Assembly: GCA_022606425.2 (NCBI GenBank)
Contig: JAHDVF020001229.1
Coordinates: forward strand, 806,001 to 870,000
From: Lepidostoma basale
Taxonomy: Eukaryota > Arthropoda > Insecta > Trichoptera > Lepidostomatidae
Direction: 5' to 3'
Length of the DNA: 64,000 nucleotides
Every line of letters starts with the position of its first letter. Positions within the stretch are counted from its first letter, which is position 1. The notes beneath the pieces are model-generated. The model did not search any database, was not told the origin of the DNA, and worked only from the letters and a program-made list of their open reading frames with translations. This document shows positions 333 through 62,080 of this stretch, piece after piece. A program made the translations under genes and the position numbers.

Positions 333-492
333 TTGTAAATTTGTATTTACACCCGCTCCCGCTATCGCTCCAGCCGGAGCTTCGCCAGGGTTACAAAAGT
401 CAGTGTATTTTGTAACCCTGACGAAGCTCCGGCGGGACCGAAACCGGTTGGATGTTGAAAAGACTATAGTGGATGTGAATACAAATTTACAA
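333..492. mobile_element. Fold-back element, family N, copy 1
   Basis: A 160-bp imperfect palindrome. The outer arms read TTGTAAATTTGTATT and its reverse complement at 481-492 and just inside. The inner arms 373-398 and 408-433 match over 26 bp with one mismatch around a 9-nt loop. Both arms carry the hammerhead-like module, and the right (+) arm is the better preserved. Other family N copies lie at 36.5, 45.7, 51.2 and 56.5 kb. Confidence 0.7.
418..449 (+). ncRNA. Hammerhead-like motif, family N
   Basis: In order: CTGACGA (418-424), an extra A, a stem GCTCC/GGACC, GAAA (440-443), then CCGGTT. With the last A of GAAA this makes the self-complementary ACCGGT followed by T, so the cleavage triplet would be GTT. 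CC before the core can pair with GG after it. The opposite arm (356-388, minus) keeps the GCTCC/GGAGC stem but has GATA for GAAA. The hammerhead assignment is inference from pattern; activity is unknown. Confidence 0.5.
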
Positions 493-496
493 ATGT

Positions 497-905
497 ATTA
501 ATAATATATTTAATAATGCCACAAAACAAATGAAGTGCTTTGTATGAAAGTAAAGATTTCATTTGTTACATAACAGGTATATTTCAATTTTTGATCCATA
601 TATCTGAATAGAAGGGGTGTTAGCAAGCATGTGATTTGAATATTGCAATCCCACAATGATATAGATAAAGTGAATTAGTTTTCGATATCTAAGTCTGGGG
701 ACAGAAGTTCACATCTGGCAACACTGGGAACACTTGAGATTGAGACTACAAACCGTTGTGACTCGACGTTGCCAAAATTAGTTTAGCAACAAGTTATGTA
801 CTCTTAGCTTAAAGCAAGTAACATAATAAAAATTAAACGATCCACCAAAACTCCCGGTGACTCTATAAACAAATATTGTAAAATTTTCCATAATAAAATT
901 ATTAC
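497..905. other. Non-coding AT-rich stretch
   Basis: No open frame of interest and no repeat family recognised. It contains short ordinary sequence only. Confidence 0.5.
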
Positions 906-915
906 AATTTTTTTT

Positions 916-1140
916 AAAACAACGTTTTTTGAACTATTTCCACTTTTGTCTTTATTTCTGTGTACCTGTGATAGATGAGTCAGTTTATAACAGTGTCACC
1001 AGTGTGTCGATGACAGCGAGCCTGGCGAAAGCGGTTGCGGACAAAATAATGACAATAGTGGAAGAATTTAAAAATATCGTTTTAATAAATTATTTTTTTA
1101 AATGAACTTCCATCAAGAGATTTCCGTAAAATCATTTGAT
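916..1140 (+). mobile_element. Fold-back element, family M, copy 1, with shared tail
   Basis: The left arm (916-958, containing CACTTTTGTCTTTATTTC) is inverted at 1041-1085. It is followed by a tail (AAATGAACTTCCATCAA... at about 1100-1140) that recurs at 46.44 and 63.84 kb. The loop region holds a hammerhead-like module. Confidence 0.6.
993..1040 (+). ncRNA. Hammerhead-like motif, family M (decayed)
   Basis: A TGTCGA-T-stem-GAAA series homologous to the better copy at 43552-43603. Stem II is damaged (GACAG against CTGGC) and the hexamer after GAAA is altered. Confidence 0.35.
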
Positions 1141-1202
1141 AAAGTTGTTATAATACTCGTAGTTACCCTATTTTATCGAATATAAAACAAATCATATTAT
1201 AT

Positions 1203-1490
1203 AAAGAAAAAATATATTAACGACGTAAAGGGAACAATAGTATAGTAATAAAGGAAGACCGAAGAAAATTGTATATACTCGTATATTATAATATGTATGT
1301 TTAAAAAAATGTACCATATACTTTAATTAGGTTCAAACGACCTATCGTATACAAACAAAAAAAAGGCATGATCAAATCAATCAAATATTTAATTAAAGAA
1401 ATGAAAAAAATATGTTAGAAAATAATAGTGTAGAAGTATTTTATTTCTTCCCTTCGGAAAGACGGCGTGATGATTAGTTAGTTATTTAAA
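1203..1490 (+). mobile_element. LINE-A 3' fragment, highly decayed
   Basis: Matches other LINE-A copies at the segment encoding the decayed VNDVNGT / GRPRK region (from about 1215) and at the 3' terminus CGGCGTGATGATTAGTTAGTT (1463-1484). The middle holds unrelated AT-rich sequence. Stops in all frames. Confidence 0.6.
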
Positions 1491-1684
1491 ATATGTAAAT
1501 CTTTGATACGTTTCACAAAATAATGCATAACATAACATATACTGTTGCTCTTATTTGTATTTTTAATATTTATATAATTGATTTCAGAACGCTCTGTATA
1601 TATGGTCGGCATAACAATTTATTAAATTTATAATGTTTTCGCAACATTTATCAAAGATTGTATATTGTATTTTGCTTCTCGAAT

Positions 1685-1760
1685 AATGATGTAAAACTCT
1701 AGTATTTAATATTTATGAAAATATCAGATTTCTAGAAGTTTTGTTACATTATTAAATACG
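1685..1760. mobile_element. Family F fold-back arm
   Basis: Contains the F arm signatures GATGTAAAACTC and TTTCTAGAAGTTTT. The opposite arm is not next to it; about 180 bp of other sequence separates it from the next F copy. Confidence 0.5.
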
Positions 1761-1764
1761 GGAT

Positions 1765-1870
1765 AAGGGTTTTCTACGCCCTGGTGGCTCCATATCGTGA
1801 GCTTGCTGTTGCAATCGCGAATATTGATGCTGCAGACAGATATAGAAAATATTACGAACGAGTCAAGTTT
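1765..1870 (+). mobile_element. Possible LINE-O remnant
   Basis: One frame reads roughly LVAPYRELAVAIANIDAADR, which resembles the LFRLAQDREAYA / AIANVGG ends of the LINE-O copies at 25.4 and 49.7 kb. Short and decayed, so it could be chance. Confidence 0.25.
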
Positions 1871-1944
1871 CTAACGTAAGAATTTTTGATATTTTACTAA
1901 ATTCTGATGCCAGAACAGCATGACTTGTAAATATATATTGTTTC

Positions 1945-2075
1945 TTTGACAGTGGTGTAAAACTCTGTATTAAATATTTAATATTGATGAAAACGTATGT
2001 TTTCTAGAAGTGTTTTATTCATTTTGAACATTACAATGCCTAAGCTTGGCGAAACAAGCCATTCTCATAAAACTC
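1945..2075 (+). mobile_element. Family F fold-back copy with motif remnant
   Basis: Left arm with GGTGTAAAACTC, AAACGTATGTTTTCTAGAAG, then GCC-loop-GGC-GAAAC at 2038-2055 followed by AAGCC in place of ATGTC. The hammerhead-like hairpin and GAAA are kept, but the upstream core and hexamer are damaged. Confidence 0.5.
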
Positions 2076-2261
2076 AATCTAATGGACACTGTCCAATGTT
2101 TTGAATTCTTCAAATCATTTAGGAATGGAATTTAGAGACAAAAAGATATTTAGGACAAAAAATAATAGTTCTATTTTATAAACATTATTTTGTGACTGGA
2201 TTGTGAGTAAAATAATTTAAAAAGTACACTGAACTGGTTAATATATTAGTTACTTACTTTA

Positions 2262-2495
2262 ATTATATGTAAACGACGTAAACGGAACAATATATAGAGG
2301 AAAGTCGAGGAAAACGTGGCACGATCGAATCAATCAAATATTAAATATCGGCCACTTGAGAAGTCAGAGAAATTGATGTGCTTGCATGACACGATATATA
2401 AATGTTTAGGAAGCGAACGAAGTCAGGAAATTACAGTATGGCGGTCTATTATTTCTGTCTACCCCTTTGGGGAGACGGCGTGATGGTTTATTCAT
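2262..2495 (+). mobile_element. LINE-A 3' fragment
   Basis: 3' end of LINE-A from the GTAAACGACGTAAACGGAAC segment through the terminus GGGGAGACGGCGTGATGG. It encodes a decayed GRPRKTWHDQINQIL-type C terminus. No intact frame. Confidence 0.8.
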
Positions 2496-2534
2496 GATTT
2501 GGTATTCAGTCAATATCGTTTCCTGTTGAACATA

Positions 2535-2640
2535 TGACTCTCCCATACTTCTCCACATATTCCTATATTGTGCCTTCTGCATCCAGTCACCAGCAAGTAT
2601 TTTTATGTCATCGGTCCATGGTAGAGGTGGAATATTATAG
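2535..2640 (-). mobile_element. LINE-D 3' fragment
   Basis: Shares CCCATACTTCTCCACATATT and CTTCTGCATCCAGTC-like sequence with 10300-10390. The copy is short and ends near 2640, next to the LINE-K copy. Confidence 0.55.
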
Positions 2641-2649
2641 AATATGTAA

Positions 2650-3105
2650 GCTTATTCTGTGATCATGTGATCACCTATGGTCTGGAAACCATTACGCTAA
2701 CTGCCAATATGGTACATAAACTAAAATGTGCGCAAAGGTCCATGCAAAGACAAATGTTAGACGTATTTCTAAAAGACAAAATAAGAAATGAAGAAATAAG
2801 ACGCCGAACAAAAGTCATAGACATAATGGACCTTGTCGCTAAGCAGAAATGGCAGTGGGCAGGTCATGTCGCCAGATAGGAAACAGAGCGATGAGTGCCC
2901 AGAGTCCTCAAATGGAGACCATGGAATTGAAAAACCGGAGTGGGCCGACCCCAAAAAAGATGAGCCGACGACATTATCCCTGTCGCGGGTAAAATGTGGG
3001 AAAGAAAAGCCCAAGATAGAGTGGATTGGAAAAAAATGGAGGAGGCCTATATCCAGCCGTGGAAAGATGGCTGAGGAAGAAGTAGAAGAAGAAGCTTATT
3101 TTTAA
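2650..3105 (+). mobile_element. LINE-K group, 5'-truncated 3' end
   Basis: Reads as the C terminus of an endonuclease/reverse-transcriptase LINE protein: ITYGLETITLTANMV, RNEEIRRRTKV, KQKWQWAGHVAR, and after stops and frame changes EEAYIQPWK. It ends in a (GAA)n tail at 3075-3095. The catalytic RT domain is absent. The longest open stretch is 2667-2879 (70 codons). Confidence 0.8.
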
Positions 3106-3745
3106 CAGTGAAAAATGGGCGAACCTTCAATTCAATCCTAAAGTTCTCCGAGTTGCGTGAGAATGGCCAATTTTAACCCCACCACGTACTACCCAGCACA
3201 AAATTTGTGCGAGACGCTTCTCTTATGGGGTTTAAAATTTCACCCTCCAAATACTTAAAGTCTAAATGCTCTCCAAAGTTACGGAATCCTTTCGACAAAT
3301 ATCGCCAACGCCCGCCTGGGACATGTGTATGCGGTAGGGACTGCAATCCGGCAAAGAACATTGCCGCTTATACCGGTAATGAAGACCACACAGGAACCAC
3401 GTTTTCAATACTAACTATAACAATAAACTATTTGAAAATGTAATTTACCAACACGTAGTTCCGAAGTTTCCTGCATAAGGATACAAAAAAATTAAAAGCA
3501 TAAAAAAACACTATAAAATAAAATGTTTGAAAAGAAAAAGATCATTCATTGAATAAAGATAATGGCGTTGAAATTTTGCATATTAATAATAGAAATATAA
3601 CTTTAAACAATCTCGAAATTTGAGAAATCAAAAAACCAATTAAAAATAAATAAAATATTAAAAATAATCAAATAAATTTAATGTCCAATCTTTGATTTAT
3701 TTCCTTTGTTATAAGTTAATACCTGAACTCCAATAAGAACTTTAA
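3106..3745. other. Non-coding stretch, no recognised repeat
   Basis: A 78-codon + frame (3207-3443) is open but shows no recognised family and no codon pattern that would support a gene. The rest is AT-rich. Confidence 0.4.
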
Positions 3746-3747
3746 AA

Positions 3748-6910: not shown

Positions 6911-7057
6911 AATGGTTCATATTTGAATAAATATAAATGATTTTTGTATTTTTACAACACTTTTCACATACGTTTTTCGGTTACGACAGAACCTTTTTCA
7001 ATATACAATACAAAATGGTTTAAAAAAGTGCAGTTACATTTATTCAAATATGAATCC
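6911..7057. mobile_element. Fold-back element, family W
   Basis: Left arm GGTTCATATTTGAATAAAT and right arm ATTTATTCAAATATGAATCC, extended with mismatches. The interior carries a hammerhead-like series on the minus strand. Confidence 0.5.
6968..7002 (-). ncRNA. Hammerhead-like motif, family W (weak)
   Basis: On the minus strand: TTGAAAA, an extra A, GGTT...AACC stem, GAAA, then AACGTATG. C3 and G8 of the hammerhead core are not conserved, so it is probably decayed. Confidence 0.3.
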
Positions 7058-14951: not shown

Positions 14952-15150
14952 TATATTATTATTATTTTGTTGAATCGCTCTTTAAATCAATACAGTGCGA
15001 GCCAAATCGATGTAAAGGGTATAAAAAATTCCGCACCAGATCTAAGACAGTGTGACAATCACACTGCCATCGCCGTGAACCGAACTCGGGACCTTCGGGT
15101 GGCATTGAAAGCACTTGCCACTCGGCCAAGAAGGTCGTATTTTTCAATCA
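14952..15150 (-). mobile_element. tRNA-headed SINE
   Basis: Minus strand: a tRNA-like head with a decayed B-box (GGTTCACGGCGATGGCAGTG), then a short body and GCGAGCCAAATCGATGTAAA (plus-strand reading) with an (ATA)n tail at 14955-14970. Shorter in the body than the 48.8-kb copy. Confidence 0.7.
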
Positions 15151-15395
15151 CGAGTACTTTCATTATATTTTCATATATAAATTCAAGGTGCTTTTCACGA
15201 ATGTCAGTATTCCGTCACTCACCATCGTATACTGCATGTCTCCGTTTCAACGAGTGAAATGTTCAAGTATGTTCAACCCTCATTACGACATAGTTTATAT
15301 GACGTGTAAGATTTGAAACAAATTTTAAGCCCTTTTATGTTTTTCTCACCACTAGATTTGTGTAAATAATATCCTTTAAAATGTAGATTTCTTAA

Positions 15396-18390: not shown

Positions 18391-18786
18391 TATAAAATAG
18401 TTTTACAAAATAAATACGCAAAAAATAAAATAAGTGACTGGGCCCGTTCGTCAGAAAATAGCTCTCCAAAAGATCCCGAACCCGAGACGATCGACCGGAG
18501 GGTTCCCCATCACCAAAAAGATGACGAGATAGTTAATGGTCCACATTCTAGAAGGACGGAGATGCAACCACCAACATGTTATCAGACCTATAAAATAGTT
18601 TTATAAAATAAATACACAAATAAATAAAACAAGGGACAGGGCCCGTGTGTCAGAAAATAGTTCTTCAAAAGATCCCGAACACGAGACAATTGACCGGAGG
18701 GTTCCCGACTACCAAAAAGATGACGAGATAGTTGGCGGTCCACATCTAGTAGGACAGATATGCAACCTTCAAAATGTCATCAGACC
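18391..18786 (+). repeat. 198-bp tandem duplication
   Basis: Unit 1 is 18391-18588, unit 2 is 18589-18786, and a third unit start (TATAAAA) follows. Shared landmarks: TATAAAATAGTTTTA, AAAAGATCCCGAAC, GACCGGAGGGTTCCC, AAAAAGATGACGAGATAGTT. The unit is 66 codons, so the frame is kept. The repeated reading ..QKDDEIVxGPH.. hints at a decayed LINE C terminus (RW.DEI..AGPHW), but this is weak. Confidence 0.8.
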
Positions 18787-18789
18787 TAT

Positions 18790-19540
18790 AAAAAAAAAAA
18801 TTGTTACTGGACCAATCTAGCTTCTTATTTTTAATATAGACCTGTAGCCAATTTCTTGAGAGGAATTGACCTATTGTGAAGTCGATTCCCAGCATTCGAT
18901 CCATATTTTTGGTGATCTGTCCAGGGGTCTTTCTTAGGGTCGGTCGTACAATACGTTGTCAGGGAGTCTGGATGAATCCATTCTTCTAACGTTTGAATAC
19001 AACGAAGTCTTATTCGTTGACTACCCTATCAAACGACATCTTCAATTTCATATTCATAATTATCGTATTTATTATTCAATCACGAAGTGTCTTGCAGATA
19101 TGTTTCAGAATTTCTTCATTGCTTGACCCCTAAGCGTGTTTTTTTTGTAATTGTAGTGTCCGCCCTGCATTAGATTCCCTATGTCAAGATGGTTCGTACA
19201 CTTGTGAATTTACTTGGCTTTAGCTAAATACATTCATCTCTGAACCGTTTCATACATACAGTGAGCTAATCGATGATATTTAATTGTTATGATACATATA
19301 TATTTTATAAACTCTTAGACACATATAGACAGAATGTACCTAAATATTTGATATCCATTACGGAGATATGGTAGATATATAATATATGTTCTCATTGCAA
19401 TATTAATCTAAAGAATGATTAGTGACATATAACAGGTGAACTATTTCAAGGCTCTTCTAGCCGTGAAGATGTTGCCATTTTTACATATCAATATATACGA
19501 GTACGTATAATTTTTATTATTATTATGTTATACTAATTTT
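18790..19540. other. AT-rich non-coding stretch
   Basis: No repeat family or coding signal recognised. Confidence 0.4.
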
Positions 19541-19850: not shown

Positions 19851-20740
19851 TAACCCGCAATGGGTAAAATCCAGTATTTGTCTACAAGTATTTGTATACA
19901 TTCAAAAAAAACATTTTATAAATTATCTTTGATGCATCACCCATGAATTTTAATCTCTATCTTGTTTATATATTATATTTACCTGTATTTTTTGGTTCAT
20001 TATGTTTAGTAAAATATGATTCATATTTTTTGGGATTAAATAAAAATTACTTTTAAATCGAGCGATTTTTTAAAAATATAATGCATTCATATTTCTTGTG
20101 TAATTTTAAAATACTTTTTGTTGCATTTACCAAATATTCTTTTTTCACAGCTCTTGAGGAGTAAGCTTATTTCTTTTCCTACTTCTACACTTCATTTAGT
20201 AAACTTCTGACTAAAATGTCGGATTTCAGTACGAAATCAAATGCTTCGTCGTCACACTGTCGTGTTATAAATCCTGCAGGAATGCGGCGCTCACTGTAAA
20301 CAAACTGCCGAAAAATGACGCGTTCAATAGAAGCGAGTTTAATATTGGAAACTAAATCTTTTTAGCATAATAAATATTTTATGTTTTCACGAGTTAAAGC
20401 ACTGCATATTTCTCCGGTGTTTATTTTGGTTTTTACACAAAATTCACTCAACGTGTTTTGAAGGTGATTCAGCTCGTTGCCATAGAGATTGCCTATATAT
20501 TTTACTCTATAAAGATATTTAGAAATTTAACCCTTGCCATACATTTTATGTGTCAAGCTCCCCGAAGCCTTTCTGATTTTTACATGTAAATCTGCAAATA
20601 TTTTGCATTGTATTGTTTCAAGATTAGAGAAAGAAAGGTCCAGAGTTTTTCCGAGTTGGCGGCTTTAATACCTCGTAATGAAAGGTGTTAAGGGATAAAC
20701 CCGTTAAAATTCGTTGATTTTTTAAATGATTTTAACATAA
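19851..20740. other. Non-coding stretch
   Basis: Apart from the B-related flank at 19851-19910, no family recognised. Confidence 0.4.
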
Positions 20741-20741
20741 C

Positions 20742-20935
20742 TAATACGAATGTAAACGTCTGTTTTCTAAAACTTGTCGTACGTTTTATAGTAATGAAAC
20801 ATTTCGCCTTGCTAAGGCATTATCACATTACGAAACATGTCAATCCCACATAATAAATCAACACTTCTAGAAAACAAACGTTATCATTTGACGTTTTAAT
20901 TATTTTAATATATGTGGAGTTAACGTCATTCTTCA
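20742..20935. mobile_element. Fold-back element, family F
   Basis: Left arm AAACGTCTGTTTTCTA...; right arm CTTCTAGAAAACAAACGTT, then a GGAGTTAACGTCATTCTTCA end matching the outer F arm. The interior has the hammerhead-like module on minus. Confidence 0.7.
20796..20826 (-). ncRNA. Hammerhead-like motif, family F
   Basis: On minus: GTGATAA, an extra T, GCCTT-AGC-AAGGC (perfect 5-bp stem), GAAA, then ATGTTTC. C3 and G8 are changed and the hexamer is damaged; the stem and GAAA are intact. Confidence 0.4.
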
Positions 20936-21069
20936 ATAAACAATAATTATGTGAAACACAGTTTAACCACTAAGAAATTAATACGATTAAAAACGTCTGT
21001 TTTAGTTTTATTGTATTATTTTTTTATAGCAATGACACTTTTCTCATAAATACCCGCTTTATTCTTATT

Positions 21070-26555: not shown

Positions 26556-26559
26556 TTAT

Positions 26560-26960
26560 AATTAATACGAATAAAAACGTCAGTTTTCTAGAAGTTTTAT
26601 AATATTTTATGGGAATGACATGTTTCGCCCATTCTAATATTTCTGGATCTACCCAAATTATTCTTCGTTAAAAATGTATAAAGTCACATCAATTTTCGTT
26701 AATTAACATATTCTGCTCCATTCACTTGTGTATATAAACTACAACGAGTGGAAGTTTCGTCACATTTGATAATGCCGAAGAAGGGCGAAACATGTCATTC
26801 CCAAAATATATAATAAAATTGCACTAAACCTTATTTAATATGGAGTTTTAGATCGTTGTTCAAGAAACAATAAATTAGAAGTGTTATAATATTATATGGG
26901 ATCGACATGTAATTCCCATAAAACATAAAACTTCTAGGATACAGCCGCTTTCATTCATAT
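26560..26960. mobile_element. Family F fold-back, one copy plus a second arm
   Basis: Left arm 26560-26630 (AAACGTCAGTTTTCTAGAAG, GGAATGACATGTTTCGCCC) and right arm 26770-26840 (GGCGAAACATGTCATTCCC, GGAGTTTTAGATCGTTGTTC), followed at 26870-26960 by another F arm pair. Loop about 130 bp. Confidence 0.65.
26766..26796 (+). ncRNA. Hammerhead-like motif, family F
   Basis: TTGATAA, extra T, GCC...GGC stem, GAAA (26787-26790), then CATGTC, making the ACATGT palindrome with a GTC triplet. ATT after the triplet can pair with AT before the core. C3 is T and G8 is A. Confidence 0.45.
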
Positions 26961-26964
26961 TATT

Positions 26965-28969: not shown

Positions 28970-29404
28970 GTATTCGTAACTCCATTTAACTTTTTGATAA
29001 AGCAATGAAAATAACATTAAATTCACTATAAACTCTCGTATATTAAAAATTCTCGTTGATCAGTTTTGTTTTATTTATTTGTGGCGGTCCAAACTTCCTC
29101 CTGGAAGAAAGCGTGACTTAAAATAATAAACAACTTAATCAAATCGTTGTAAAAATTGTGATGCTTAATTTATTGTTTCTTCAACAATGGTGTAAAACTC
29201 CATGTTAAATAATTATTACGAATGGACTTGAACTTGGACTTGGATATTCTGGCTTACAGAGGTTCAGCTCTAATAGCTATTCCTCTTACGTCTGTAAGAA
29301 ACATTGTCGGAATGTGATTTGGTAGTTGTTTTATGATGGGGCTAAATGTATGGCCCGGAGTGTCCCTCCGAAAGAGGGCGAAAGGGGATTTAGGGTTTTT
29401 GATA
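28970..29404. other. Non-coding stretch with one F outer arm
   Basis: 29175-29225 (TTGTTTCTTCAACAATGGTG, AAAACTCCATGTTAAAT) is the outer end of an F arm. The rest is not recognised. Confidence 0.4.
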
Positions 29405-29575
29405 AAGAATGAAAACGTCTGTTTTCTAGAAGTTTTTTTATAATTAATGTAACTGATATGGTCCGCCTGTCAAAGACATTTTCAAATGTCACATTTGATC
29501 ATGCCTGAGACAGGCGTAACATGTCATTGACATAAATTATAATAAAACTTCTAGAAAACAGACGTCTTCCTCAGT
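29405..29575. mobile_element. Fold-back element, family F, best copy
   Basis: Left arm AAAACGTCTGTTTTCTAGAA, right arm TTCTAGAAAACAGACGTC, length about 165 bp. Both arms retain parts of the hammerhead-like module, and the right arm is nearly complete. Confidence 0.8.
29486..29533 (+). ncRNA. Hammerhead-like motif with stem I, family F
   Basis: TTGATCA (29495-29501), extra T, GCCTG-AGA-CAGGC (perfect 5 bp), GTAA (29516-29519), CATGT, C (29525). Flanking stem I is in register: AT/AT next to the core and triplet, a small internal loop, then ATGTC (29486-29490) with GACAT (29529-29533). Core changes: C3 to T, G8 to C, A13 to T. Confidence 0.5.
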
Positions 29576-29650
29576 ATTAACTAACTATCTAACTAACCAT
29601 CACACCGTCTCTCCGAAGGGGTAGGCAGAAATAATGGACTGTCACACTTT
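29576..29650 (-). mobile_element. LINE-A 3' terminus
   Basis: CTAACTATCTAACTAACCAT followed by CACCGTCTCTCCGAAGGGGT and the ATAATGGACTGTCACAC segment. Confidence 0.8.
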
Positions 29651-31750: not shown

Positions 31751-31811
31751 CACAATGAAGATTTTTTATGAATTACAATACTGTTTTTTCCACTTTAGAG
31801 TTTATTTTTCT

Positions 31812-31845
31812 GGGCATGTTTCGAAGGCTTACACCTTCATCATCG
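31812..31845 (-). ncRNA. Hammerhead-like motif, family G, left arm
   Basis: Minus: CCGATGA, T, GAAGG-TGTAAG-CCTTC, GAAA, CATGCC. The cleavage triplet is altered (GCC), so this arm should be inactive. Confidence 0.5.
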
Positions 31846-31975
31846 GGAATCTAAAATCCTTCCAAAATTTAGCCCATTGATATGTCTATCGTTATCTTCC
31901 TAGTACTAAACACATGTTGTATATAATTCTAGGTTCTTGCACTCAGTTTGTAATAATTTTGGTTAGTTTATATCG

Positions 31976-32019
31976 TTCTCCCGATGATGAAGGTGTAAGC
32001 CTTCGAAACATGTCGAGAA
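31976..32019 (+). ncRNA. Hammerhead-like motif with perfect stem I, family G
   Basis: TTCTC (31976-31980), CCGATGA (31981-31987, U4 as C), extra T, GAAGG-TGTAAG-CCTTC, GAAA (32005-32008), CATGT, C (32014), then GAGAA (32015-32019). TTCTC pairs with GAGAA directly beside the core and the GTC triplet, as in a hammerhead. Predicted cleavage after 32014. Confidence 0.6.
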
Positions 32020-32204
32020 AAATAAACTCAAAAGTGGAAAAAATAATGTTTTAATTCATAAAAAATCGTAATTGTATTTGTAATATTTTAACGAATAAAA
32101 AAATAAAATCTACAATAGTTTAAACCAATGTATTATTTATATATATACAATATGTTTTAAAGAAAAAAATATTTTTAATTTAATTTATATACTAAAAAGG
32201 AATT

Positions 32205-35198: not shown

Positions 35199-35830
35199 AA
35201 ATCAATACAAACGATCTCTTTACAATATGATCTCTTTATAATACCATATCTTTACAGCACGATCTCGTTACAAAACCATCTGTGTACAACACGATTTCGT
35301 TACATTACTATATCTTTACAACACGATCTCGTTATAATACGATATCTTTACAACACGATCGCGTTATAATACGATATCTTTACAACGCGATATCGTTATA
35401 ATACGATATATTTACAACACAGTCTCGTTACAAAAACGATATGTGTACAACACGATCTCGTTATAATACAATATCTATACAACACGATCTCGTTATAAAA
35501 CGATATCTTTACAACACGATCGCGTTATATTACGATATCTTTACAACACAATCTCGTTATAAAACGATATCTTTACAACACGATCGCGTTATAATACGAA
35601 ATCTTTACAACACAATCTCGCTATAATACGATATATTTACAACACGATCTCGTTACAATACAATATATTTACAACACGATCTCGTTATAAAACGATATCT
35701 TTACAACACGATCGCGTTACAAAACGATCTGTGTACAACACGATCTCGTTACAATACAATATATTTACAACACGATCTCGTTATAAAACGATACCTTTAC
35801 AACACGATCTCGTTACAATTCTATATCTAA
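35199..35830 (+). repeat. 32-bp minisatellite built from two 16-mers
   Basis: About 19 copies of a 32-bp unit: ACAACACGATCTCGTT plus ATAATACGATATCTTT. The two halves are diverged versions of one 16-mer, so this is a small higher-order repeat. The 61-codon frame within it is an artefact, as 32 is not a multiple of three. Confidence 0.95.
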
Positions 35831-36435: not shown

Positions 36436-36455
36436 AGTAGTAGTAGTAGTAGTTA

Positions 36456-36575
36456 TCGAACCAACCGGATTCGTTCAAGTCAGAGTTTTGCAAGAGTTAC
36501 AAAAACCGACTGTTTGTTTTTGTAAACATTCGTCAGGGTGTGAAACCGATCAGTTCGATTGAACAAAATAATACG
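36456..36575. mobile_element. Fold-back element, family N, decayed
   Basis: TCGAACCAACCGGATTCG at the left; GTTACAAAAAC / GTTTTTGTAAAC inner arms; GTCAGGGTGTGAAACCGAT at the right. The hammerhead-like core is largely lost. Confidence 0.5.
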
Positions 36576-37109
36576 GTATAAAGCTAAAAAAAAAAGTTAT
36601 ACGAGTATTTTAATAAATTTTTATGTTTACGAATAAAACAGTCTGTTTCTTTATATTTTAAGGGATAAACATGTTTTGCCTTGCTATCAAATGTCTTAGC
36701 GTGATGATATTTAATTTCATGTATTTACTTGAAATAGTATACATGTACACAACACATGTTGTATTAAAAAACAATTAAACATTCAATTATAATTATAAGG
36801 TTACAATATAAGGTTACATTTTGTTTACATGTTTATTTAATGCTATTCTAAAAAAAAATATGCTCTGCTCACTTTTGACATCCTCCGGTATACCTTCATA
36901 AATTTTAAATGCGTTTATACATTAGAGAATTCTTAGATTCATTTTTTTTTTCTGAATGAGAGCCTTAGTTTATTTTTTATCTTGTTTCATATTGATGTTC
37001 ATGTTGATTACTTTTTATCTTTCTTAAAAATTCTTGCGAGGTGTGCCCATTAACAATTTTGGGAATTAGTAATAAAACGTTTTATGTATTATAATTATTT
37101 TTTATAATG

Positions 37110-38055: not shown

Positions 38056-38059
38056 GTGA

Positions 38060-38430
38060 TGCTTTTTTTCACTTTTTCTTTCTTATATACCTTGTATATA
38101 CAACACTTATATTAAAAATTAAAATTACATAGACATGTTTCGGACAACCTATCCTTCTTCAGTGATACATATTATAAAGATAACATTTTTAAAATATTAT
38201 AAAATTGTCTACATGATCTGTTATAACTGTTATAACTATATTTGTTAGAACAAAAGCATAAACGTTCCGAAATAAATCTTTATAACATCTGTCAGATCAT
38301 GTAAACAATTTTATAATATTTTTAAAATGTATGTTTATAATGTGTATCACTGAAGAAGTAATATTTTATTTTTTAATATAAATGTTGTAAATACAAAGTA
38401 CATAAATAAGAAAAAGTGAAATTAAATCAT
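38060..38430. mobile_element. Fold-back element, family H, copy 1
   Basis: The outer arms GTATATACAACACTTATATT and the TATAAATGTTGTAAATAC counterpart, plus inner matching arms around 38165-38230 and 38290-38345, make a palindrome of about 370 bp. The right arm keeps ACTGAAGAAG but lacks the hairpin and GAAA. Confidence 0.7.
38132..38162 (-). ncRNA. Hammerhead-like motif, family H, copy 1
   Basis: Minus: CTGAAGA (consensus-compatible core), extra A, GGAT-AGGTT-GTCC (4 pairs with one U-G), GAAA, CATGT, C. The palindrome ACATGT and triplet GTC are intact. Stem I pairing is not obvious. Confidence 0.55.
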
Positions 38431-43186: not shown

Positions 43187-43544
43187 TAGATAATCAAAAG
43201 ATAATAAATAATTAATATTCCTGGCTTCGATTACTGCCGAAAAATTGTTTTGTTTAATTCCAGACCTTAGCTTATATAGATGGGGAAAACCGAATAAGGC
43301 AATGCCAACCTTATGGACGAAGAACAACTATTATATTTAATTCAGTAATAATAAAAACAAAAGTACAATTTGTTCAAACGTTTTATATAAATATGTGAGC
43401 TATAATAAAATTTTCCATTGTATTGAATATGAATCTTCTTGAATACCTGTAATACCAATATTTAAATTCAGTAAATTTTACATAAATATTTAAAAATTAT
43501 TTTTGTATAGAATCATGTTTACCAACCCTGATCTGTATGTATCG

Positions 43545-43650
43545 GTTTGCAATAGTGTCACCAGTCTGTCGATGCCAGTAAGCCTGGCGAAACCGGTCAC
43601 TATCGAAAAAAAGACAAAAGTGAAAGTAGTTAAAAAACATCGTTTTTTTT
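43545..43650 (+). mobile_element. Family M fold-back, right half
   Basis: Motif plus right arm (AAAGACAAAAGTGAAAGTAG, TTAAAAAACATCG). The left arm is not present. Confidence 0.6.
43552..43603 (+). ncRNA. Hammerhead-like motif with stem I, family M
   Basis: ATAGTG (43552-43557), an 8-nt spacer, CTGTCGA (43566-43572), extra T, GCCAG-TAAGC-CTGGC... (stem 5 bp), GAAA (43589-43592), CCGGT, C (43598), then ACTAT (43599-43603). CACTAT pairs perfectly with ATAGTG. A6 of the core is T. The hexamer is ACCGGT and the triplet GTC. Confidence 0.55.
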
Positions 43651-43779
43651 ATTATTATTTAAATATTATTCCATACTATTTTAATAGCATTTTAATATTA
43701 TTATATTTTAATATTTCTTCTCCCATTATATTACTATTATGTGAGAAGGGGCTTTGGAATTGTAGATATATAAAATAGA

Positions 43780-45010: not shown

Positions 45011-45680
45011 TAATTCCATTTCTACAATATTATTTTATTACATTGTACAAGTGTGCTATGCGAAGCCTTGTCTTATTCATCACAATATTCGATACTTTTC
45101 CTTTGTAGTTATGAATCGAAAAATATTTCCAGAAAATTCTAGAATTATTCTTAAGACATTATCTACTTTAATTATTTTTACAAAACGCGTCTTACTTACA
45201 ATAATTTTCGCTATATCGCACGCTTAATAGTAAACTGACCGATTATGGTTTAGGTCGTAATTGAGTTAACATTAGACAGAGGCTTGTGTTAAGACTATCC
45301 ATTGTTTCGCGTTAAAATTAAGTCAAAATTCCGCCAATTGACCTCCATTACACTATATCGGTATTTTTCATTCGTACGTGTTTTTCGACTGTTTTTGTTA
45401 AAACATCGACTCATGTCAGATTGAGAAAAACTTGCTTTTTTTAGTTGTTGATTTACTGTTTCTTGCTAGTTTGTCTGGATATTCTATAATTATTTTGGAT
45501 GATTTAAAAGCCTGAATTAGACCGAAGGAAATATTCCCATAATTTCATATGAAGCGCTCAATTGTGTGGTGTGGGTAAACAAAATTAAGTAATGTAAAAA
45601 AGGGTAATTTATTATTTGTTTTTTAACCACATTTCAAAAAGCAATCACATTTACTTTATTTTTCCACCGCTTTATTTTGT
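45011..45680. other. Non-coding stretch
   Basis: Nothing recognised. Confidence 0.4.
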
Positions 45681-45685
45681 TTTTT

Positions 45686-45785
45686 CGAACCAACCGGTTT
45701 CACATATAATATTTGTTTTTGGTAATCCTGACGATCCTCCGGCGTAGGCGAAGCCGTTTTATTTGATAAAACAATAAAACATATT
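45686..45785. mobile_element. Family N fold-back, partial
   Basis: TCGAACCAACCGGTTTCAC at the left, CCTGACGATCCTCCGGCGTA at the right. The left arm has lost its core. Confidence 0.6.
45728..45756 (+). ncRNA. Hammerhead-like motif, family N
   Basis: CTGACGA (45728-45734) intact, then TCCTCCGGCGTAGGC with a shortened stem, GAAG for GAAA, CCGTT. Decayed 3' half. Confidence 0.4.
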
Positions 45786-45789
45786 TCTA

Positions 45790-46060
45790 TTTTTCTTGTT
45801 TATACACTTTGTATATACAACACTGATATTAAAAAAAATAAAATTATGTAGACATGTTTCGGACAAATAGTCCTTCTTCAGTTAAGATACGTACTTGTAA
45901 AAATATTATAAAATTGTTGTTGTTTACATGATCTGACAGATTTGTTGTTAACATCATAAGATGGACTGTCTATATAATTTTTTTATTTTTATATCAGTGT
46001 TGTACATACAAAGTGTATAAAAAAGAAAAATAGATATAAACCATCATAACAACACAAATT
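45790..46060. mobile_element. Fold-back element, family H, copy 2
   Basis: Outer arms ACACTTTGTATATACAACAC and the inverted GTGTTGTACATACAAAGTGT, about 270 bp in total. The left arm has the complete motif; the right arm motif is decayed. Confidence 0.75.
45851..45881 (-). ncRNA. Hammerhead-like motif, family H, copy 2 (complete core)
   Basis: Minus: CTGAAGA, extra A, GGAC-TATTT-GTCC (4 perfect pairs), GAAA, CATGT, C. All core positions fit the CUGANGA...GAAA consensus apart from the extra A before stem II. Stem I pairing is weak. Confidence 0.6.
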
Positions 46061-50774: not shown

Positions 50775-51175
50775 ACGCCAAAGAAGTAAAACTTCTTACA
50801 TGCGCACATGAGTACGCGCGCGTTTTTTTTACTTTTTTTTTAAATGTAGAATATGCTTTTAACGCGGGTTTTTATTTGTAATAGTGCTAATCCCTGGGTT
50901 AATTCTCAGGTCGATTCGCTTGAGTCGAGCCGGAACCCCGTCCTGGACTCGCTTAGCCCGTGGCGTGCTCCCGATTACATCATCTAATATGTATAATATG
51001 AGCATTCCTCGTAGTACACCGAGGAAAGTATTCCGTTATCGGCGCGGCAGTAAAAACTATGTTGTGCTAGGTTCAGAGAGGTTGGCTTAGGTTAGTTTGG
51101 CTTAAAATCAGGGCTACCACTTATTCTATTATATAATAAAAATACAATAAAATATTTTTTTTTCTATACTTTACA
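50775..51175. other. Non-coding stretch
   Basis: GC-richer at 50890-51090 with a 68-codon + frame (50884-51090) that I cannot assign. Confidence 0.35.
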
Positions 51176-51179
51176 TTTA

Positions 51180-51300
51180 CACCACCTTTATTTTGTTTTA
51201 TTGAACCAACCGGTTTGGTTTCCGCCAGAACTTCGTCAGGGCTACAGAAGCTCCGGCGGAAGCGAAACCGGTTGTTTAGGTAAAACATTAATTTATTGAA
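51180..51300. mobile_element. Fold-back element, family N, compact copy
   Basis: GAACCAACCGGTTTGGTTTC on the left arm, GAAGCGAAACCGGTTGTTTA on the right. The arms meet with almost no loop at 51240. The minus arm keeps CTGACGA (complement at 51232-51238) but lacks a good GAAA; the plus arm keeps GAAACCGGTT but has lost CTGACGA. Confidence 0.65.
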
Positions 51301-51540
51301 GTGATTTATTTATTATTAAAATTTGTTTTTAATAATTTCACATTAAGTGTAGCATCTCAAATTAAGTGCTTCATACTAAAGTATAAAAATAAAATTATCT
51401 GAAAATGTATAATGTATAATACATATATTAAATGTTAAAAAATTTAAACACTGTAGTTATACGTAACATATTTTATTTCATGTTAGATTGTCGCGCAGAC
51501 ATTTTACCAACTAATGTTGCCATCATCAGGTGTTATAATC

Positions 51541-53205: not shown

Positions 53206-53280
53206 TTTAAGTATATTAATTTAAAACACTTAGGAAATTGAAAATAACTTGGTTTATTATCCACAAAATATTATTAAAAA

Positions 53281-53320
53281 ACACGACATGTTTCAAAGGA
53301 TACCTCCCATCTTCAGGTGT
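53281..53320 (-). ncRNA. Hammerhead-like motif with stem I, family I, left arm
   Basis: Minus: ACAC, CTGAAGA, extra T, GGGAGG-TAT-CCTTT stem (with G-U pairs), GAAA, CATGT, C, GTGT. Stem I ACAC/GTGT lies directly beside the core and triplet. All CUGANGA and GAAA positions fit. Confidence 0.65.
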
Positions 53321-53434
53321 ATATATAAAATAACTAAATTATAACCAGGTTAATTTTTTAATTTAAATTGTTGTACCGAATTTTATTTGCGTTTTTTATA
53401 TTAGTCTTTTTTGTTTAGTTTTTATTATATATTT

Positions 53435-53473
53435 ACACCTGAAGATGAAGGTATCCTCCGAAACATGTCGTGT
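53435..53473 (+). ncRNA. Hammerhead-like motif with stem I, family I, right arm
   Basis: ACAC (53435-53438), CTGAAGA (53439-53445), extra T, GAAGG-TAT-CCTCC (one mismatch), GAAA (53460-53463), CATGT, C (53469), GTGT (53470-53473). Predicted cleavage after 53469. Confidence 0.65.
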
Positions 53474-53519
53474 TTTTTTAATATTTTGTGGATATTAAAT
53501 ATAGTTATTTATAAGTGTA

Positions 53520-54800: not shown

Positions 54801-54870
54801 TTCCTTATTAAATAATTAATACGAATTAAAACGTCTGTTCTATAGAAGTTCCAGTAAATTTTATGTCAAA

Positions 54871-54902
54871 GACATGTTTCGCTTTGCTAAAGCATTATTA
54901 AA
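54871..54902 (-). ncRNA. Hammerhead-like motif, family F
   Basis: Minus: TTAATAA, T, GCTTT-AGC-AAAGC (perfect 5 bp), GAAA, CATGT, C. The core CUGANGA is decayed; stem II, GAAA, palindrome and triplet are intact. Confidence 0.4.
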
Positions 54903-54924
54903 TTTCCATTTTTTTCATGTTGTT

Positions 54925-56394: not shown

Positions 56395-56530
56395 TAAAAC
56401 TATGTTTTTTAAGAACTGCTTTTGTCTTTATTTCGACAGCAATAATTTTATATATTTTTTTTGTTTTTGTAACCTTGACGAACCTCCGGTGGGAGCAAAA
56501 CCGGTTGGTTAAATAAATAAAATAAATAAA
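56395..56530 (+). mobile_element. Family M left arm and family N right arm, joined
   Basis: 56395-56440 (AAGAACTGCTTTTGTCTTTA) is M-type; 56462-56520 (GTTTTTGTAACCTTGACGAA, AAAACCGGTTGGTT) is N-type. Either a hybrid or a copy linking the two families. Confidence 0.5.
56471..56510 (+). ncRNA. Hammerhead-like motif with stem I, family N
   Basis: AACC (56471-56474), TTGACGA (C3 as T), extra A, CCTCC/GGAGC-type stem, AAAA (G12 as A), CCGGT, T (56506), GGTT (56507-56510). AACC/GGTT is a perfect stem I in register. Confidence 0.5.
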
Positions 56531-56609
56531 GTAGTATGGAAACAAAATATAAAAATGTTTTTTGTAATGATCCCATTCAATAAATTGATTGATTCACACG
56601 AAAGTATAA

Positions 56610-57905: not shown

Positions 57906-57914
57906 GCAACCAAA

Positions 57915-58285: not shown

Positions 58286-58424
58286 CTCCATATTTTATGT
58301 ACTGACTTTTTAATAATATTTATCCAAGAAAATCTTATTTAAAATAAAAACTTTTACGTCGAAGAAATTGTATTTTTAATAATAGACAATATAATTATAT
58401 TGACGAATTTTTTATTAACTTATC

Positions 58425-58665: not shown

Positions 58666-58681
58666 ATTTATTTAATATGGA

Positions 58682-58990: not shown

Positions 58991-58994
58991 TTGG

Positions 58995-59295
58995 GAATTA
59001 TACATCATTGTAGAAAAAAACAATAAATCCCCTGTTTTTGATTAACTTACACTGCACCACAATTTTAAATCAGACACAACCATATGTTTTGCCAATATCT
59101 CTTTTATATGTTGCATCAATGTGTACATTTTAGAAATGGAAATCAAAGAATAGAAATTTATCTACATTCATATATAATATAATATGTATAATATATTTTT
59201 TTTTTCACAAATTAGACATATACCTGTATAACATTCACACATGGTTTCAAGACAAAAAATAGTGCCTGTCGAAAAATTTCAAATATTATTCTAAT
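58995..59295. other. AT-rich stretch with a family F arm tip
   Basis: 59000-59035 (GGAATTATACATCATTGTAG, AACAATAAATC) resembles an F arm end. The rest is not recognised. Confidence 0.35.
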
Positions 59296-59612
59296 TTTAT
59301 GAACAAAATAATGACCTTTCATTATTTTGTGATCCTTATCATTGAGATCGTTTGGACATATGGAAAGAATGAAAGAAAAAAGAATGGTAAAAAATTTGTA
59401 GAACCAGTAATAGAGGAAGGCCGAGGAAAACGTGGCACGATCAAATATATCAAATATTGAATGTCGGCAATGTGAGGAGTCGACGCGCGTGCATGATACG
59501 ATGTATGAATGTTGAGGAATCGAGAGAAATATGTCAGGAAAGAAAAGTGTGGCAGTCCATACTTTCTACCTACCACTTCGGGGAGATTAGTTAGTTAGTT
59601 AGTTAGTTATAA
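59296..59612 (+). mobile_element. LINE-A 3' end
   Basis: TGAACAAAATAATGACCTTT, GTTTGGACATATGGAAAGAA, GTGTGGCAGTCCATACTTTC, ending GGGGAGATTAGTTAGTTAGT. GACGGCGTGATGG is deleted just before the tail. The tail has five TTAG units. Confidence 0.85.
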
Positions 59613-59799
59613 TATTTTTCTTTTTTTAAATTACAAACGATATTTACTAGTTTATTCGAACCATATCTTAGTTCCTACTTATTCTATTTTTGAAACATTA
59701 AAAATATGGTTTTGGTCAAAAAGTGAATTATAAAAATATATACACTTGTTGAATTGTGCAAGTATATTGGCATCATTCTCTCGTTTCCGAGATGAATGA

Positions 59800-59912
59800 A
59801 TGATATGAATGTTGAGGAAGCGAGAGAAATATGGCAGGAAAGAAAAGTGTGGCAGTCCATTCTTTCTGCCTACCCCTTCGGGGAGACGGCGTGATGGTTA
59901 GTAAGTTAGTTA
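59800..59912 (+). mobile_element. LINE-A 3' terminus
   Basis: ATGAATGTTGAGGAAGCGAG, GAAAAGTGTGGCAGTCCATT, GGGGAGACGGCGTGATGGTT, AGTAAGTTAGTTA. About 110 bp, very close to consensus, so probably young. Confidence 0.85.
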
Positions 59913-59914
59913 AG

Positions 59915-60660
59915 ACAGGCTTTTTACTTATTAGTTAAAGACAAAATAAATATTTCGATAAAATTATTATGAGTATCAACATTATATAACTATTATGAAA
60001 AAAATACATTCAAATTAAATTTATGGATACTCGTATAACCAATATCGCGTTCTACAATGGATCCGTTTTCGATTCGATGAAGGGTATCACTCATTTGTTT
60101 TTATTATTTTCTACCAGCACGCGCTCTACAAACACAAAGCTATAAATACGAAATATCAAAAGCATCTCTCACCTACCCGCATTATTTATTACGAGGGTTT
60201 GAATTATTCTCTAATAAATTTAAGTGAATTTTCAAAGTGGATAGTTACCAATGGATTCTCTCTAATTAGATTGAATTTTGCGCTTCGTTTTGTATGTACG
60301 TGGAAGGCTTATAAATCATTCGCCGGCCGGATGTAATTTTTCACATTTTCCTTCGCTTATATCTGATACCGGTTGCGTGACAGCGAGTTTGAGCATTTTT
60401 CACGTTTTTAGATTAATTAGACAAATATGTTTATATTTTATACTTCTTATGTTACTACTGCAAACAACGCAATCGCACCGCGCTAGCCTCGAAGATAACA
60501 AATGCATCGCCAGTTCACATTTATAATTGATTGTTAAGATTATTATCCTACGAGTTTTGTTAATTGATTTCAATGCACCGCTTCAACCCTAGTTCTTTGC
60601 ATTTTTACGGGAGATAAAAATGTAAAGGTTACGAGATCAAATAAAGTAATTAAGTAGATG
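59915..60660. other. Low-copy non-coding stretch
   Basis: An 82-codon + frame (60278-60526) is not recognised. No repeat seen. Confidence 0.4.
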
Positions 60661-60664
60661 TTTT

Positions 60665-60792
60665 AGAAGAAGGATGAAAGTAGGATAAATGCCGTAGAAA
60701 TGAGGTCACTAAGAAGAATGTGCGGAAAAACAACGTATGATAGAATATCTAATGATGAAGTAAGAAAGGAATGTAAGGCGGATGAATGCGTC
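60665..60792 (+). mobile_element. LINE-A internal fragment
   Basis: KKDESRINAVEMRSLRRMCG, KTTYDRISNDEVRKECKADE. Ends exactly where the LINE-J tail complement begins, so it was the LINE-J target or was truncated by it. Confidence 0.8.
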
Positions 60793-60978
60793 ATCATCAT
60801 TATCATCATCAGCCGTCTGCCACCCACAGCTAAACGTAGGCCTCTCCCAAAGCACGCCACCGCCCCTTATCCATTGCCGCTTCCATCCATCTATGTCCAG
60901 CAATCCTCTTCAGATCGTCGATCCAGCGGGCAGGGGGACGTCCAACTCTACGCAATCCTGTACGTGGTCTCCACTCCA
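60793..60978 (-). mobile_element. LINE-J 3' segment of a twin-primed insertion
   Basis: (GAT)n complement TCATCATCATTATCATCATC, then the complement of ALGEAYIQQW..., up to GTGGTCTCCACTCC, the complement of WRPR. Confidence 0.85.
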
Positions 60979-61200
60979 CGTGACGTGGACACTGACAAAA
61001 TGTCTAGTCTACAGATTCAAGGTCGCCCAGCGCACCATGGAAAGAGCCATGCTTGGAATAACCTTGAGGGCAGATTTAGAAACGAATTTATTCAACAACA
61101 AACCAAGGTGACTGAGGTGGCTCTACGGATAGGCGGGCTGAAGTGGCGGTGGGCTGGCCATATCTGTCGGAGAACCGACAGCCGATGGGGAAGACGGAAA
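60979..61200 (+). mobile_element. LINE-J 5' segment, inverted
   Basis: GTGGACACTGACAAAATGTC through KVAQRTMERAMLGITLRADL, VTEVALRIGGLKWRWAGHIC, RRTDSRWGRR. It is the element part directly upstream of the 60793-60978 segment but in opposite orientation, with about six bases missing at the junction. Confidence 0.85.
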
Positions 61201-61445
61201 TTTAGAAATCCTCAAGTGACAAAATAATTAATAGTTAGATTCCTCCTTTTACTCCTTTCTCCTTAAATACTTTGTCTACATTAAATCTCCCAAGCTCCCA
61301 TTCCCAATCAAATGCAAATTCATCATTTATTATTTCTATATAAATTATGTCTTTTCAAATGTATGTTTTTTCTAAATTACATTTTTTTTTATATGTTCAT
61401 CATGTATTATTATTATTTATTAGTTCTTACTGATAAAAAATATAT
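61201..61445. other. AT-rich non-coding stretch
   Basis: Nothing recognised. Confidence 0.4.
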
Positions 61446-61531
61446 ATATTATTATAGTACTTATAACAAATAGCCCAGGGAAATTTTTAAATTTGAATTA
61501 TTGTGTCGAATTTTAAATGCGTTTTTATATT

Positions 61532-61992
61532 CTTCTTATTCTTCTTCGTCAGCCCTTATCGGTCCACTGCTGGACATAGGCCTCCTCCCTTCCCTTCCAC
61601 TCGTTTCTATCTCCTGCCAGCCGTAGCCACATTTCCCCCCCCCCCCCTTACGGCAGCAATGTCGTCGGCCCACCTTTTTTGCGGCCTGCCGACATTTTTC
61701 CTATTCTCCCTTGGTCTCCACCTTATTATTTTCTGGGTTCATCTATCCTCACTCTGTCTCGCCACATGACCCGCCCATTGCCACTTCAGTCTCGCTTGTC
61801 GTTCCATGATGTCCGTTATTTTTGTTCGGCGTCTAATCTCCTCATTTCTGATTCTATCTCGGAGACTGACGCCGAGCATATGTCTTCCCATGGAACGTTG
61901 CGTGACTCTCAATCTTTCTACATTTCTCTTGGTGAGGGTCTTCATTTCCATCCCATACGTCATCACCGGCAGTATGCATGAATCATAGACAT
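61532..61992 (-). mobile_element. LINE-K group insertion with 11-bp TSD
   Basis: 461 bp between perfect GTTTTTATATT repeats (61521-61531, 61993-62003). Tail complement CTTCTTATTCTTCTTC. Minus frame 61739-61966 reads MMTYGMEMKTLTKRNVERLR, VTQRSMGRHMLGVSLRDRIR, QARLKWQWAGHVARQSEDR. 5'-truncated. Confidence 0.9.
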
Positions 61993-62041
61993 GTTTTTAT
62001 ATTAGTCATTCTTTATTAAGTTTTTATTATAATATATTTTT

Positions 62042-62080
62042 ACACCTGAAGATGGAGGTATCCTCCGATACATGTAGTGT
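62042..62080 (+). ncRNA. Hammerhead-like motif, family I, copy 2
   Basis: ACAC (62042-62045), CTGAAGA (62046-62052), extra T, GGAGG-TAT-CCTCC (perfect), GATA (A14 as T), CATGT, A (H17 still allowed), GTGT (62077-62080). Stem I and II are perfect; GAAA is damaged. Confidence 0.55.

Follow-up and report, generated by a model that had tools for sequence, protein, structure and literature searches.

What kind of element leaves several families of short fold-backs, different in their arms, that carry one and the same small module resembling a hammerhead ribozyme (HHR)? The question is raised by a stretch of 64,000 nucleotides from the trichopteran insect Lepidostoma basale (GenBank assembly GCA_022606425.2, contig JAHDVF020001229.1, positions 806,001 to 870,000 of the forward strand), hereafter the window. 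It is AT-rich (GC 31-37%), with long TA/AC microsatellites and many fold-backs, and the module had been noticed in it by an earlier sequence-only reading. Minimal type I hammerheads of Penelope-like elements (PLEs) were reportedly described by Cervera and de la Pena in 2014 and by Lunse et al. in 2017. We find that the window carries, in six fold-back families, a real and covarying hammerhead module of this minimal PLE type. With a probability of roughly two in three, the fold-backs themselves are head-to-head pairs of PLE pseudo-long terminal repeats (pLTRs) that lack an open reading frame (ORF) and bear this minimal hammerhead.

The module recurs in the window with the following layout: a CTGANGA-like core, one base, a hairpin of 4-6 bp, GAA, and a self-complementary hexamer followed by C, T or A. 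A descriptor of this layout, whose weights were set only after the first matches had been inspected, gave 11 matches. Sixty order-3 Markov shuffles averaged 0.32 matches and never exceeded 2, and eight of the 11 outscored the best shuffle match (24.1). The proposed co-occurrence of these parts is thus above chance, except that the core is not CTGANGA in all families. Core and hairpin were separated by one base in nine matches, by two bases in one (53316, minus strand) and by none in one (11754, minus strand), the last being the weakest match, at the threshold; among 19 matches in shuffled sequences, spacings of 0, 1 and 2 bases were seen in 9, 4 and 6 cases. Among particular words, GAAACATGTC occurs 10 times in the window (0.39 expected) and CTGANGA by itself 39 times (17.6 expected).

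Six families, which we call alpha, beta, gamma, delta, epsilon and zeta, were resolved by arm profiles. They were defined from the descriptor matches, and zeta was added through GAAACATGTC and arm similarity. Altogether, 37 places in the window match the six family profiles at an E-value of 0.01; 27 of these are listed in Table 1, and zeta has other modules besides the four whose positions are given there. The sequence-only reading had counted at least nine families under letters that carry no coordinates, and no one-to-one mapping onto the six can be made. It was right that the arms cannot be aligned between families, at least at E < 0.01: the five cross-family profile matches, confined to alpha, beta and epsilon, cover the module only and extend at most 17 nt beyond it. 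Not every family has CTGANGA as its core. The canonical core is present in alpha, epsilon and two of the four delta modules. The beta core is CCGATGA (U4C) in both arms, the gamma cores are CTGTCGA and GTGTCGA (A6U, in one copy also C3G), and the zeta core is mostly TTGANAA (C3U with G8A, both changes being present in three of five module copies). All six families retain GAA and the NUH triplet in one copy or more. Four families (alpha, beta, epsilon and zeta) have ACATGT as their hexamer, and gamma and delta have ACCGGT; the hexamer is decayed in zeta 20826 and delta 388. The two zeta changes preserve a Watson-Crick pair at positions 3-8, which is noteworthy because in PAc, the Poseidon PLE of the lizard Anolis carolinensis, this pair is critical and can partly be swapped (Frangieh et al. 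2024, PMC11167929; here and below, published elements are described after passages of the cited papers).

Base pairing was assessed on an alignment of 18 modules, with several copies per family: 16 copies from the window and two modules, L080 and L081, from metagenomic contigs described below. Stem cells were paired in 77.8% of cases (90% in stem II, 65.6% in stem I), versus 47.8% after shuffling and 34.9-45.1% after sliding (42.7-45.0% when slid by one base). Cells changed on both sides numbered 63 versus 30.2 shuffled and 10-27 slid, and the covariation score was 0.758 versus 0.221 shuffled and 0.118-0.246 slid by 1-3 bases. With one representative per window family, hand-chosen as well preserved copies, 29 of 30 stem II cells were Watson-Crick (permuted mean 14.3), a value reached by one of 720 permutations, the true one; stem I had 18 of 24 standard pairs (permuted mean 10.8; two of 720 permutations reach this value). 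With L080 added, stem II rose to 34 of 35, and stem I without delta to 21 of 24. Stem I pairs directly beside the core at all four positions in alpha, beta and zeta and at three in gamma. Compensatory changes between copies, one of the properties on which the sequence-only reading had staked its proposal, are present in both stems. The model built from this alignment, R1, which by construction matches the 16 window rows, L080 and L081, gave 18 matches in the window at E < 0.01, of which 16 belong to the build set. One R1 candidate (6964-7006, minus strand, E 0.006) was not accepted; it is flanked by inverted sequences unlike the six families.

Exactly one extra base before stem II, as proposed earlier, is found in 17 of the 18 aligned modules. 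In alpha, beta, gamma and zeta this base is T, which together with A9 and G10.1 spells ATG, and no ORF anchors this codon; in delta and epsilon it is A (AAG). In PAc, the ORF begins at stem II, with C3 and G8 placed before the start codon and the cut site 26 bp after it (PMC11167929); in alpha, by our count, the predicted cut lies 25 nt from the A of ATG. By analogy, we infer that the extra U belongs to a PLE start codon. Since A occupies its place in delta and epsilon, the data also suggest that the extra base is structurally needed.

The fold-back geometry is consistent with the same origin. Places of the same family lie next to each other within 500 bp in 16 cases; 13 of these adjacencies are head-to-head with the modules facing outward, two run in the same direction and one is tail-to-tail, and each of the six families has at least one head-to-head pair. 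A delta pair at 36453-36577, whose right arm reaches only E 0.073, was excluded from this count. Arm ends were taken from arm-to-arm comparison, the ends of profile matches being limited by the supplied arm lengths. Counted from A9, arm similarity extends for 66 and 69 nt in alpha, 89 and 89 nt in beta, and 98 and 94 nt in epsilon; for the zeta pair located at 29.4 kb the value is 69 nt, and for two delta pairs it is 24 and 40 nt. These distances are lower bounds because alpha copies share about 20 nt more. For comparison, reverse transcription in PAc starts 111-118 bp into the ORF (PMC11167929), versus the 66-98 nt after A9 in four of our families. Several pairs have one shorter arm, and the start of 8 of 21 arms falls at positions -14 to +6 relative to the predicted cut, close to the foot of stem II (arms in regions set by us, with a beta arm left out and the plus-strand delta arm at 36529 badly aligned). 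This clustering has P 0.005 under a uniform model and is only a hint, because the scan statistic gives 0.034 and another 21-nt window holds nine arms.

Individual copies deserve mention. The right arm of epsilon fold-back 1 (38304-38421) lacks only a segment that starts with stem II and ends a few bases beyond the cut; the module facing it is intact. A third zeta copy at 20976-21043 (minus strand) forms, with 20831-20905, the sole tail-to-tail adjacency. The zeta copy at 26749-26857 is followed in the same direction by a 5'-truncated one (26905-26962, plus strand), an arrangement that resembles a partial tandem of PLEs. A GTGGA box lies 19-25 nt past the predicted cut in four of six families (alpha, beta, delta, and gamma in its copy at 999, plus strand); when position was restricted, 12 of 300 random sets also reached four families, and a k-mer count for a common 3' motif was not above that in resampled flanks.

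The window modules share stems I and II, the near absence of stem III and, with changed letters in three of the six families, the core with the minimal type I hammerheads of PLEs, which occur scattered through non-coding DNA of animals and within pLTRs (PMC7761336). Unlike these, they lie in ORF-less head-to-head fold-backs of six families, and no PLE ORF was seen. PAc has its HHR at the ORF start, as the ATG in four of the six window families would imply, and is a full element in tandem repeats with an active protein, unlike the window units (PMC11167929). Penelope elements of the rotifer Adineta vaga include inverted pLTRs, most frequently head-to-head and with unequal arms; the pLTR of one family spans the first 12 ORF codons (22 with the tail), and target-site duplications (TSDs) of 8-10 bp are described for some copies and none for others (PMC3846280). 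The Adineta pLTRs flank ORFs or captured genes, whereas the window fold-backs are ORF-less and have no convincing TSD in the 12 pairs searched. The parts are already known, and what is new is a set of ORF-less head-to-head members across several families; ORF-less PLE fold-backs with hammerheads were not named in the titles and abstract openings that searches of open-licence papers returned. In proposing pLTR-like units of several lineages, the sequence-only reading agrees with the 13 of 16 head-to-head adjacencies, the ATG in four of six families and the published PLE anatomy.

To the module, its covariation and its outward orientation, which are established in the window, a route can be fitted by analogy with published PLEs. 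Each fold-back would consist of two pLTRs that meet at their 5' ends, so that modules and 3' ends face outward. In the PLE transcript, the ORF would open with the module, A9, the extra U and G10.1 forming AUG. Because the palindrome alone cannot close a normal stem III, two copies, in tandem units or in two RNAs, may pair via ACAUGU or ACCGGU, or a PLE protein may assist, and the RNA would be cut after GUC or GUU. The hexamer could close only a pair or two within one RNA, while stem III would be possible between two RNAs; action of minimal hammerheads as dimers is described (PMC7761336), and the PAc HHR is described as cleaving only with protein present (PMC11167929). The PLE endonuclease would then cut both target strands, reverse transcriptase (RT) would start on either side at the same internal RNA site, and the 5' ends of the two cDNAs would be joined, frequently close to the module, giving a fold-back without an ORF. 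Convergent growth and joining of two such cDNAs are feasible, since the PAc protein cuts either target strand and extends it, and the RT start site does not differ between the two (PMC11167929). Cleavage, two-sided priming and joining in these elements thus remain analogies. When the folding of entire fold-back transcripts was predicted, the module was base-paired with the opposite arm in four of seven (alpha, beta, delta1 and zeta29), so that the ribozyme would act in the source RNA and fold-back RNA of these four should not self-cleave; both epsilon fold-backs have one arm without a module, and the gamma fold was mixed.

A bolder version traces the entire fold-back class to two-sided target-primed reverse transcription that halts at the hammerhead, whether folded or cut; with the two cDNAs joined at this point, the structure of the ribozyme would be recorded in one arm. 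Zeta would have moved with its C3-G8 pair swapped to U3-A8, and may use its module for something other than fast cleavage. We regard this version as speculative and on balance unlikely.

Copies were also sought outside the window. A scan of GTDB contigs, with a pattern in which the core had to be followed by A or T and the basal pairs of stem II had to be GG..CC, returned eight stretches, of which one looks genuine (L080), one is probable (L081) and six were judged chance. L080, from a contig of a Zoogloeaceae metagenome-assembled genome (MAG), has stem I CCCC/GGGG and a 5-bp stem II with three pairs beyond the pattern. L081, from a Prevotellaceae MAG contig, has stem I CCTT/AGGG, a mismatch in stem II, and 5' of the module an inverted repeat of 29 nt (97%) in which a second module is not present; this repeat is compatible with a head-to-head junction. 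In both, the module lies near one end of the stretch, and the end of L081 is AT-rich with a TG repeat and then passes into GC-richer sequence. These ends are probably eukaryotic, perhaps insect-host, DNA in the assemblies. Module scans of IMG/VR gave 52 and 25 stretches; two of these 77 reach a stem score of 8, both without the extra base, and the viral-contig matches look like chance. Two stricter IMG/VR patterns had no matches, and one further pattern hit a single contig (59% GC), also judged chance.

Several results weigh against reading the fold-backs as PLE pLTR pairs with a hammerhead. Looser descriptors were not enriched in the window: core (at most one mismatch), hairpin and GAA without the hexamer gave 8 matches versus 3-9 in six order-2 shuffles (5 versus 0-3 when exactly one extra base was required), and GAA with any self-complementary hexamer gave 28 versus 29.2 expected; the excess therefore sits in the full combination and in particular words (GAAACATGTC, GAAACCGGTT). 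Two of five covariation measures fail to beat shuffles, with 9 versus 8.8 pairs showing two-sided change and 28 versus 24.9 further pair types. Stem I is poor in epsilon (2 pairs) and in the delta arm used (1 pair), though other delta copies pair better by eye, and among seven folded monomers both stems appear only in the beta minimum free energy structure and stem II in five (read by eye). The Rfam check that the sequence-only reading had proposed found nothing at the gathering threshold over the whole window and, at E up to 10, no hammerhead family in the window or in the isolated beta and L080 modules; the permissive matches were to microRNA, small nucleolar or Cajal body-specific RNA models and to one viral intronic RNA model. 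The Rfam hammerhead models expect a different stem III and no inserted base. Cores are altered in three of six families (beta, gamma, zeta), and C-to-T plus G-to-A decay could yield the same zeta letters as a pair swap. A TSD search over 12 pairs, whose ends are uncertain, gave one result below p 0.05, a T/A run. The extra base, GG..CC and canonical core of L080 and L081 are not independent support because the search pattern demanded them, and stem II of L081 scores no better than that of the chance stretches. The window has 34 ORFs of 110 aa or more; 20 of them were searched against Pfam, broken frames lying outside the search, and had no match, and the RT motif [YF][VIAML]DD was found in six frames as one string, in a stop-ridden frame; the absence of an RT/GIY-YIG ORF among the ORFs searched is also what is expected of ORF-less derivatives. 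Finally, the likeness to the anole and rotifer elements is a likeness to their published descriptions.

Whether the module still cleaves is a separate matter. It may have become a structural signal for RNA dimerisation, protein binding or RT stopping, inherited from a PLE ribozyme; this idea overlaps the PLE reading and differs from it on catalysis. The beta, gamma and zeta cores are substituted while the stems and the extra base persist, with GAA and palindrome in at least one copy each, published HHR mutants of PAc had no effect on in vitro insertion (PMC11167929), and eight of 21 arms start near the predicted cut, which is a hint only. A plain hairpin signal, however, would not need a canonical core, which alpha, epsilon, two of four delta modules and, by virtue of the search pattern, L080 and L081 all have. 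We therefore hold loss of catalysis to be possible though on the doubtful side. Because core letters changed in three of six families, retention of the structure does not imply retention of catalysis, and of the claim that these units have kept the ribozyme the structure stands and the chemistry is not clear. The role of minimal hammerheads in PLEs is itself described as unknown (PMC7761336).

The two other explanations concern the mode of movement. Several families of miniature inverted-repeat transposable elements (MITEs), moved by a transposase that recognises as DNA a small hairpin within their terminal inverted repeats, would account for the small size and for fold-backs of full length, and the ORFs and frames tested showed no RT. 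Two covarying stems together with a partly conserved unpaired core (CTGANGA, GAA, NUH) are nevertheless the pattern of a hammerhead, the arms of several pairs have different starting points near the centre, some copies are solo or run in the same direction, and no fixed TSD was found, though the ends are uncertain; we think a MITE origin quite unlikely. The sequence-only reading had also called the units retrozyme-like. Animal non-LTR retrozymes are non-autonomous and spread via small circular RNAs cut by tandem type I hammerheads, and like the window units they are short and non-coding (PMC7229834), the latter being AT-rich as well. Known retrozymes are tandem repeats of about 300 bp (PMC7229834), and most invertebrate ones have a stable helix III (PMC7761336), whereas here the palindrome replaces stem III, the pairs are inverted, only two of 16 adjacencies run in the same direction and none of the tandem arrays found by Tandem Repeats Finder in the window contains the module. 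We consider retrozymes very improbable, and this part of the earlier proposal is not supported.

Table 1. Fold-back arms and single copies of the six families in the window
Feature	Positions	Strand	Module position	Evidence
Delta fold-back 1, left arm and module (core CTGGCGA)	345..399	-	388	nhmmer E 1.3e-7; R1 25.1 bits, in build set
Delta fold-back 1, right arm and module (CTGACGA, AACCGGTT octamer)	407..486	+	418	descriptor, profile
Gamma fold-back, left arm; similarity to long arm starts near predicted cut	916..1038	-		nhmmer E 0.0011
Gamma fold-back, right arm, degenerate module (999-1041)	972..1093	+	999	nhmmer E 5.4e-16; R1
Zeta fold-back, left arm and module (GTGATAA core; hexamer not self-complementary)	20735..20843	-	20826	profile, R1
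Zeta fold-back, right arm, short, starts at CGAAACATGTC	20831..20905	+		profile
Zeta fold-back, left arm; similarity to long arm starts 13 nt before predicted cut	26558..26663	-		profile
Zeta fold-back, right arm and module (TTGATAA core)	26749..26857	+	26766	profile, R1
Zeta copy, 5'-truncated, same direction as 26749-26857	26905..26962	+		profile
Zeta fold-back, left arm and module (TTGAAAA core)	29397..29504	-		arm similarity, profile
Zeta fold-back, right arm and module (TTGATCA core)	29481..29587	+	29495	arm similarity, profile, R1
Beta fold-back, left arm and module (CCGATGA core, GAAACATGCC)	31751..31855	-	31846	arm similarity, profile
Beta fold-back, right arm and module (stem I TCTC/GAGA)	31972..32076	+	31981	descriptor, profile
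Epsilon fold-back 1, left arm and module	38058..38209	-	38162	descriptor, profile
Epsilon fold-back 1, right arm; no module downstream of CTGAAGAAG	38304..38421	+		arm similarity, profile
Gamma single copy, module CTGTCGA T GCCAG..CTGGC GAAACCGGTC	43526..43664	+	43566	descriptor, profile
Delta fold-back 4, short arm, starts at GAAACCGGTT	45664..45701	-		profile
Delta fold-back 4, right arm, decayed module	45718..45776	+		profile, R1
Epsilon fold-back 2, left arm and module	45780..45930	-	45881	descriptor, profile
Epsilon fold-back 2, right arm; similarity starts 4 nt before predicted cut	45967..46043	+		profile
Delta fold-back 2, left arm and module	51170..51250	-	51239	descriptor, profile
Delta fold-back 2, right arm, core-truncated module	51247..51302	+		profile, R1
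Alpha fold-back, left arm and module	53233..53354	-	53316	descriptor, profile
Alpha fold-back, right arm and module (stem I ACAC/GTGT)	53402..53516	+	53439	descriptor, profile
Zeta copy and module (TTAATAA core)	54810..54919	-	54901	profile, R1
Delta single copy and module (TTGACGA core)	56464..56543	+	56475	descriptor, profile
Alpha single copy and module (perfect 5-bp stem II; GATACATGTA)	62009..62135	+	62046	descriptor, profile

The window holds other repeats. Four larger inverted repeats, with about 0.8-1.8 kb between their arms, lie outside the 37 profile places (2261-2488/3769-3989, 4133-4300/5628-5814, 41026-41192/42994-43160 and 58416-58611/59401-59593). Tandem repeats include a 32-bp unit in 19.3 copies with 84% matches (35211-35828) and a 199-bp unit in two head-to-tail copies with 86% matches (18391-18793). 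One RT-like ORF has five relatives, which are without informative names. Letters resembling tRNA promoter boxes (GGTTCGATTC; GGCCGAGTGGCAAGTGC) are present below 53233 (minus strand, in the left flank of alpha) and at about 15110-15161 (minus strand), and may mark tRNA-derived short interspersed nuclear elements.

If the fold-backs are PLE pLTR pairs, such repeats would no longer be classed as MITEs of DNA transposons. If they are products of two-sided PLE insertion, each fold-back records where RT started and stopped relative to the ribozyme, and the families with altered cores would serve as natural mutants for asking if the elements can move without cleavage. The bolder version, with RT stopping at the hammerhead, could, if true, also account for many minimal hammerheads that are described as 'dispersed' in animal genomes.

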